From the NCBI GenBank assembly GCA_905235565.1, contig CAJOLR010000003.1, positions 1 through 64,000 of the forward strand: 64,000 bases of DNA, read 5' to 3'. Below the pieces are notes generated by a model. It saw only the letters and a list, made by a program, of their open reading frames with translations, was not told the origin of the DNA and ran no database searches. Source of the DNA: an uncultured Bacteroidaceae bacterium. Its GTDB lineage: Bacteria > Bacteroidota > Bacteroidia > Bacteroidales > Bacteroidaceae. Below, piece by piece: positions 9,825-43,775 of this stretch (position 1 is its first letter; every line of letters begins with the position of its first letter). The position numbers and the translations under genes are program-made.

Positions 9825-9958
9825 GAACTTTTTGGGGTATCTGTATCAGAAACCATCGACACCCATGTCGCTGTGAATGGGAGGGGCCCGCTCCGAAGGA
9901 GTGGGAGGGATAGGGCCGTTAGGCCCGTAGTTTCAGATACTGATACCCCAAAAAGTTC
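9825..9958 (+). repeat. Structured intergenic element, copy B
   Basis: Lies between convergent genes. Outer arms of 23 nt (9825-9847 with 9936-9958, one mismatch) enclose three hairpins: CGACA/TGTCG (9857-9870), CTCC-GAA-GGAG (about 9891-9901) and GGGCC-GTTA-GGCCC (about 9913-9926). The linkers AGAAACC (9848-9854), GGGAGGGGCCCG (9879-9890), GGGAGGGATA (9903-9912) and GTAGTTT (9927-9933) are shared with the copies at 40391-40519 and 43592-43775, while the stems differ in sequence but still pair. Confidence 0.85.
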
Positions 9959-40390: not shown

Positions 40391-40519
40391 CGGAAATTGG
40401 GGTTGTTGGCAGTAGAAACCGTCGCCACCCTCGGCGCGTTAGAGGGAGGGGCCCGCCGCGAAGCGGTGGGAGGGATATCGCGAAGCGCGTAGTTTTGACG
40501 TCAACAACCCAAATTTCCG
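40391..40519 (+). repeat. Structured intergenic element, copy C
   Basis: Sits directly after the pepD terminator and before the convergent Lrp gene. Outer arms 40391-40408 and 40502-40519 pair over 17 of 18 positions. Inside are hairpins CGCC/GGCG (40423-40436), CCGC-GAA-GCGG (about 40456-40466) and CGC-GAA-GCG (about 40479-40487). The linkers AGAAACC (40414-40420), GGGAGGGGCCCG (40444-40455), GGGAGGGATA (40468-40477) and GTAGTTT (40489-40495) match copies B and D, although the outer arms have a different sequence. Confidence 0.85.
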
Positions 40520-43591: not shown

Positions 43592-43775
43592 GGAATTTTT
43601 AGGGTATTAGCGTCAAAACTACGCGCCTTCGGCGCTATCCCTCCCATCCCTAATAAGACGCTCTGAAAGACGTGAGTAAACTCCCATCTTCCAGAACATC
43701 TTCTTAGTGACGGGCCCCTCCCGTTCACAGACCAACGCGCGGCTATGGTTTGCCTGCTAATACCCTAAAAATTCC
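43592..43775 (-). repeat. Structured intergenic element, copy D (enlarged)
   Basis: Fills most of the 297-bp gap after metA. Perfect 20-nt outer arms (43592-43611 with 43756-43775) start GGAATTTTTAGGG. Read on the minus strand it has the same linkers as copies B and C: GGGAGGGGCCCG (43711-43722), GGGAGGGATA (43636-43645) and GTAGTTT (43616-43622). Its last hairpin is GCGCC-GAA-GGCGC. The middle hairpin is replaced by a longer sequence of about 65 nt. Confidence 0.82.

Follow-up and report, generated by a model that had tools for sequence, protein, structure and literature searches.

What kind of molecule, and what kind of genetic element, is represented by intergenic repeats whose stems change in sequence from copy to copy and still pair? 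The question arises in the window analysed here, a stretch of 64,000 nt (positions 1 to 64,000 of contig CAJOLR010000003.1 of an uncultured Bacteroidaceae bacterium), for which a preliminary description reported three copies of such a family joined by common linkers. Reading the sequence at each place recovered all three copies with their linkers, and the pattern GGGAGGGATA-N8-30-GTAGTTT occurs three times within the window versus zero times expected from shuffles. The genes neighboring the copies are housekeeping genes. Copy 3, on the minus strand (43592-43775), differs in having a long second hairpin (43714-43643) and is the same element, not another one. The parts of the three copies are as follows.

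9825..9853, plus strand: copy 1, 5' arm of outer stem P1 (GAACTTTTTGGGGTATCTGTATCAGAAAC), pairing with 9930-9958
9857..9870, plus strand: copy 1, P2 hairpin CGAC/GTCG with loop CCCAT at 9862-9866, a covarying helix
9877..9881, plus strand: copy 1, pseudoknot 3' strand ATGGG, partner of the loop at 9862-9866 (covariation in 163 copies and in the alignment of 39)
9887..9905, plus strand: copy 1, P3 hairpin CCCGCTCC-GAA-GGAGTGGG, including an invariant G-T pair (covariation)
9913..9926, plus strand: copy 1, P4 hairpin GGGCC-GTTA-GGCCC (pairing and alignment)
9927..9929, plus strand: copy 1, conserved linker GTA (alignment of 39 copies)
9930..9958, plus strand: copy 1, 3' arm of P1, pairing with 9825..9853
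40391..40419, plus strand: copy 2, 5' arm of P1
40423..40436, plus strand: copy 2, P2 hairpin CGCC/GGCG with loop CCCTC at 40428-40432
40442..40446, plus strand: copy 2, pseudoknot 3' strand GAGGG
40452..40470, plus strand: copy 2, P3 hairpin CCCGCCGC-GAA-GCGGTGGG
40478..40488, plus strand: copy 2, P4 hairpin (T)CGC-GAA-GCG(C)
40492..40519, plus strand: copy 2, 3' arm of P1
43748..43775, minus strand: copy 3, 5' arm of P1
43731..43744, minus strand: copy 3, P2 hairpin region with loop CGCGT and one pseudoknot mismatch
43643..43714, minus strand: copy 3, P3 in a long version, with a similar long module in L008, L010, L013 and L014
43623..43635, minus strand: copy 3, P4 hairpin GCGCC-GAA-GGCGC
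43592..43619, minus strand: copy 3, 3' arm of P1

Elements of the family measure about 110-190 nt and are laid out in the order P1, CRT, P2/pseudoknot, AGGGG, P3, AGGGATA, P4, GTA, P1', with CRT, GTGA, AGGGG, AGGGATA and GTA as conserved single-stranded linkers. The outer stem has a median of 29 Watson-Crick pairs; as had been claimed for the outer arms, its sequence is different in every copy and pairs inside each. Its inner end is AAAC/GTTT in the host genus and elsewhere any complementary set (GGACGG/CCGGCC, AAGAC/GTCTT), and in many copies the arms extend outward through a bulge (GCTAAGTGAGCGGAAC ... GTTCCCCTT). P2 comprises 4 bp, and a 5-nt segment of its loop pairs with the 5 nt directly before AGGGG, forming an H-type pseudoknot (S1 4 bp, L1 1 nt, S2 5 bp, L2 0, L3 about 6 nt). 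The three-hairpin junction originally proposed therefore keeps its long closing stem, but its core is a pseudoknot plus two hairpins: the first hairpin exists as part of the pseudoknot, which had gone undescribed. The G of GTAGTTT is an outer-stem base, leaving GTA alone as the single-stranded linker, a boundary evidenced by L087, L122 and L111, where GTAC faces a matching G.

Stems pair within copies and differ between them. Among the 13 strong copies of the host genome, 22 of 37 pairs show two-sided changes, a number reached by 0 of 500 shuffles (mean 11.1). When 39 diverse copies from other loci were aligned with MAFFT, 95.1% of cells were paired, versus 68.7% when shuffled and 35-45% in slid versions; two-sided cells numbered 356 versus 107.9 and the covariation score was 0.661 versus 0.166 in shuffles, although these cells are not independent events because of relatedness and gene conversion among copies. 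Every cell of the pseudoknot and of P4 was paired in this alignment. Further pair types were not above shuffles on the same 39 copies (356/500), because shuffled columns also yield many types. Across 163 distinct copies the pseudoknot strands were CCCGT/ACGGG (74), CCCTC/GAGGG (27), CCCAT/ATGGG (16), CCCAC/GTGGG (16) and CCCGC/GCGGG (5). Every helix covaries, the pseudoknot included. Paired share, two-sided changes and covariation score each exceeded their shuffles, so a lack of covariation, one of the outcomes that the preliminary description had named as refuting it, did not occur, and a conserved fold of the family is strongly supported.

The family was searched for in the host genome and in other Bacteroidales. 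The host genome (a 2.2-Mb assembly) holds 13 strong and three degenerate copies, and 33 of 37 congeneric genomes carry copies (0-32 per genome). None were present in 24 genomes of other families, and broader sampling of 393 Bacteroidales genomes gave sporadic copies in four further families, three to six each. Some of these distant-family copies have no P4 at all (L340). A named scan matched more than 100 contigs; among the matches listed, all were from uncultured Bacteroidales or Bacteroidia, mostly ruminant gut MAGs. Searches of plasmid, phage and viral collections gave no real match, three viral pattern matches being judged chance, and a Pfam scan beside the distant copies found no mobilization genes.

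Several side observations were made at these loci. Head-to-head element pairs, spaced by about 27-94 nt and reminiscent of REPIN dimers, occur in different species (L063, L095, L131, L343, G021:C12:839-1258). A second, related type without P4 (L095:1802-1950, L063:4132-4267, L224:1304-1450, L136:3379-3474) combines the pseudoknot hairpin with AGGGGCCC...GGGAGGG, frequently adds a long P3, and has a GCTAAGTGAGCGGAAC-like 5' flank partly in common. In long-P3 copies such as the L010 core, an open frame (NGRGPSLRRCSGRWEFTHVFQSVLLGMGGIAPQGA) terminates at the GTAG linker; the L010 frame has no match in plasmids or phages, and such frames are likely annotated as spurious small proteins. About 0.8 kb from one copy lies a cobalamin riboswitch (108 bits; L009:527-726, minus strand).

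The preliminary description left open whether the folded single strand under selection is RNA or single-stranded DNA. Selection on such a strand has strong support, and loops and pair types lean toward DNA. Mismatches within the arms are more often G-T than A-C (129 versus 47), which identifies the plus strand as the folded one. C(GNA)G loops cap 84 of 124 short P3 and 111 of 144 P4 hairpins (195 of about 268), with some GNNA loops among the rest, versus 0 of 41 terminator-like hairpins (a small set) and 9 of 1320 other hairpins at the same loci. GNA and GNNA loops on G-C stems are described as exceptionally stable DNA mini-hairpins in the passage of PMC4686876 citing Hirao and Yoshizawa. The DNA energy set of ViennaRNA, as loaded, assigned an identical energy to all triloops and so does not separate DNA from RNA loops. 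P3 and P4 consist almost exclusively of Watson-Crick pairs, and G-U was seen in 0 of 778 inner-helix cells (excluding the invariant P3 G-T), with two-sided changes in 177 cells; the corresponding G-U count for tRNA stems from these data is 31 of 420 cells. Drifting RNA helices normally pass through G-U. We take the zero to mean that it is as DNA that the pairing is assessed, although recombination that swaps entire hairpins may have played a part. From these sequence patterns we favor, short of proof, single-stranded DNA over RNA as the folded molecule.

The main rival to DNA is a structured non-coding RNA family, in which copies would be transcribed and the pseudoknotted RNA would act in trans or serve as a mobile intermediate. 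In an H-type pseudoknot, a first loop of 1 nt is a geometry typical of RNA. Such RNA-like loop lengths and the fixed G-T (G-U) pair of P3 would suit RNA, as would a multi-hairpin junction with conserved linkers, and covariation is expected equally for RNA. Nonetheless, we regard this explanation as rather unlikely: the inner helices otherwise lack G-U, compared to 7% in tRNAs, the triloops are of DNA type, no common promoter was noticed by eye, orientation relative to co-directional neighbors is balanced, copy 2 lies directly behind a strong terminator, and the family has no Rfam relative.

Comparison of equivalent sites between species indicates that the element inserts. No alignable congener has the 167-nt copy of the L007 site; in most of them the genes that border it lie 2-72 nt apart. 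The site of copy 2 (40391-40519) is occupied in G021, G027, G002 and G006 between the same gene pair, the element lying directly behind an intrinsic terminator, whereas G012, G008 and G018 have the terminator only. Flanks at occupied and empty sites are too diverged to show target duplication, and none was seen. Occupied copy-2 sites have similar arms with compensating changes (GTTGTTGGC/GTCAACAAC versus GTTATTGGC/GTCAATAAC) but differ inside, in P2 sequence, short or long P3 and the letters of P4; G006 carries an extra 75-nt domain, like that of G021 at the L001 site. Modules therefore change while the site stays, likely by exchange between copies. The earlier statement that the pattern is not simple duplication holds for the stems; nevertheless, the element also spreads in MITE-like fashion, as occupied and empty sites and exchanged modules attest. 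In other species, the intergenic sites of L001 and copy 1 also hold other, unrelated dispersed palindromes, namely AATTGAGAATTGAGAATT arrays and AGTGTCCCAC...GTGGGACACTTTGGCGG (L222, L236 and L239 at the L001 site; L312, L314 and L318 at the copy-1 site).

Placement relative to genes is strongly biased. Of 71 element-bearing spacers, 42 are co-directional, 28 convergent and one divergent, versus 73, 25 and 45 of 143 background spacers (divergent, p = 2.6e-8), and copies lie a median of 20 nt from gene 3' ends and 46.5 nt from start codons. Such strong clustering at gene 3' ends and such scarcity in divergent spacers are what a cis-acting host element at gene ends would show, whether a terminator, a boundary of transcription or supercoiling, or an mRNA 3' stabilizer comparable to REP/BIME roles; copies common to several species also remain well folded. 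However, sites are often empty in close relatives, both orientations are equally frequent, no U-run follows the arm in the three window copies, and selection against harmful insertions also predicts promoter avoidance, all of which make a cis-acting role improbable. Least credible of all is that folding is under no present selection, with template switching keeping the palindromes perfect and gene conversion among copies preserving the modules: the nearly all Watson-Crick pairs of P3 and P4, module exchange at fixed sites and a remnant at L030, whose new palindrome resembles the product of template switching from GTGAACGG to the left arm, would fit, but invariant single-stranded linkers amid very different stems, the preference for GNA loops, a pseudoknot crossing P2 and conservation between distant families are left unexplained. 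The remnant itself (L030:1501-1605) is a truncated copy in which internal GTGAACGG runs on as a perfect complement of the left REP arm, and looks like a template-switch event.

No match to a described element or MITE emerged from the searches made. Rfam, including twister and HEARO, gave no match at gathering score or up to E = 5, and no description was found in the literature searched, a body that excluded supplementary tables of structured-RNA screens; the family is new by every database tried. It most resembles REP/REPIN sequences in being short, non-coding, intergenic, dispersed, non-autonomous, folded as a single strand and located beyond gene 3' ends, and in living in a host with a RAYT that has its own REP pairs, in which some element copies are nested. 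Unlike REPs, it has no GTAG/GGAG foot 5' of a hairpin, its GTA lying 3' of P4 and the next base being part of P1. It is also three to five times larger, has a pseudoknotted core with P3 and P4, was not found beside the RAYT genes looked at, and is abundant in some genomes where no Y1 was found.

The host genome encodes one RAYT-like Y1 protein (P0001, 266 aa; L015:1300-2350, G000 C6) with NHVH...YIHQNP motifs and a C-terminal HTH. The gene is flanked on both sides by inverted GGGGACGGTTC REP palindromes, making it a Bacteroidales REPtron, and about 12 of 109 element copies lie inside an inverted pair of this RAYT-type REP. No element copy adjoined any of 21 sampled Y1 loci, the host's own RAYT being flanked by other palindromes. 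Y1 genes were detected in 13 of 18 congeners with at least eight copies versus 10 of 19 with fewer, and were not found in several copy-rich genomes, mostly incomplete ones. GC skew revealed no replication-strand bias, unlike the expectation for lagging-strand transposition. Without copies beside Y1 loci, clear co-occurrence or a strand preference by GC skew, we did not assign RAYT as the mobilizer; the resident RAYT transposase is not clearly the mobilizing enzyme.

The nearest published lead is a survey of Y1 proteins reporting "atypical secondary structures" beside TnpA-REP subclass 2.6 genes of Bacteroidetes (PMC6006769). Those structures share with the element their Bacteroidetes hosts, the lack of a GT[AG]G foot and copies elsewhere in the genome, and the NHVH and YIHQNP motifs of the host RAYT are like subclass 2.6. 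By description they are set apart as weaker and located beside the gene, whereas the palindromes on either side of the host RAYT are GGGGACGGTTC. ERIC/IRU and YPAL, the latter targeting sites at or near dyad symmetry, are MITE-like repeats (PMC2229807) that are likewise 100-200 nt, intergenic, built on a long stem-loop and found at occupied and empty sites; however, they are defined by common sequence, whereas arms and stems of the element are unrelated between copies and its core is pseudoknotted. In the broad sense the element is MITE-like, being non-coding, dispersed and polymorphic between occupied and empty sites, but, unlike the terminal inverted repeats of classical MITEs of DDE transposons, its terminal arms are not conserved in sequence between copies and pair only inside each copy. 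Integron attC sites, too, are folded single strands: their self-complementary arms vary and few of their bases are conserved. Folded attC is noted in PMC8266576. The element differs in having, by eye, no R'/R'' boxes (GTTRRRY/RYYYAAC), and in lacking a gene-cassette array. In the twister ribozyme, a hairpin-loop CCC pairs with a downstream GGGAGGGG-like strand, a likeness that serves as a lead only; the element has no Rfam match even up to E = 5. A G-quadruplex was rejected as an explanation: the four uninterrupted G3 tracts are kept within the genus, but the distant members of G214 have an interrupted first tract (GGA, GGT). We class the family among dispersed palindromic mobile repeats.

The explanation we prefer, at a probability of about one half, is a REPIN-like mobile element, itself non-autonomous, with an enzyme supplied in trans recognizing its plus strand folded as single-stranded DNA. 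Replication, repair or a transposition intermediate would expose the fold, and the enzyme would recognize the linkers and knotted core, as RAYT/Y1 does REP hairpins and IntI does attC. P1, P3 and P4 would be recognized by shape, so their sequence would be free to drift if both arms change together, perhaps aided by template switching across the hairpin. More tentatively, this may be a new kind of mobile element, a pseudoknotted single-stranded DNA recognition unit kept by shape, with interchangeable hairpin modules and an undescribed trans enzyme.

When covariation is this strong, a functional RNA is usually considered proven; here, the type of loop and the absence of G-U point toward DNA. The case is a warning that RNA-discovery screens can catch mobile DNA folds. 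If the molecule is DNA, the family would be a clear example from nature of a pseudoknotted single DNA strand whose fold is under selection. The element points to a putative single-stranded DNA-processing enzyme in common gut Bacteroidales, and the family is itself a natural data set from which the rules of single-stranded DNA folding in vivo could be measured.
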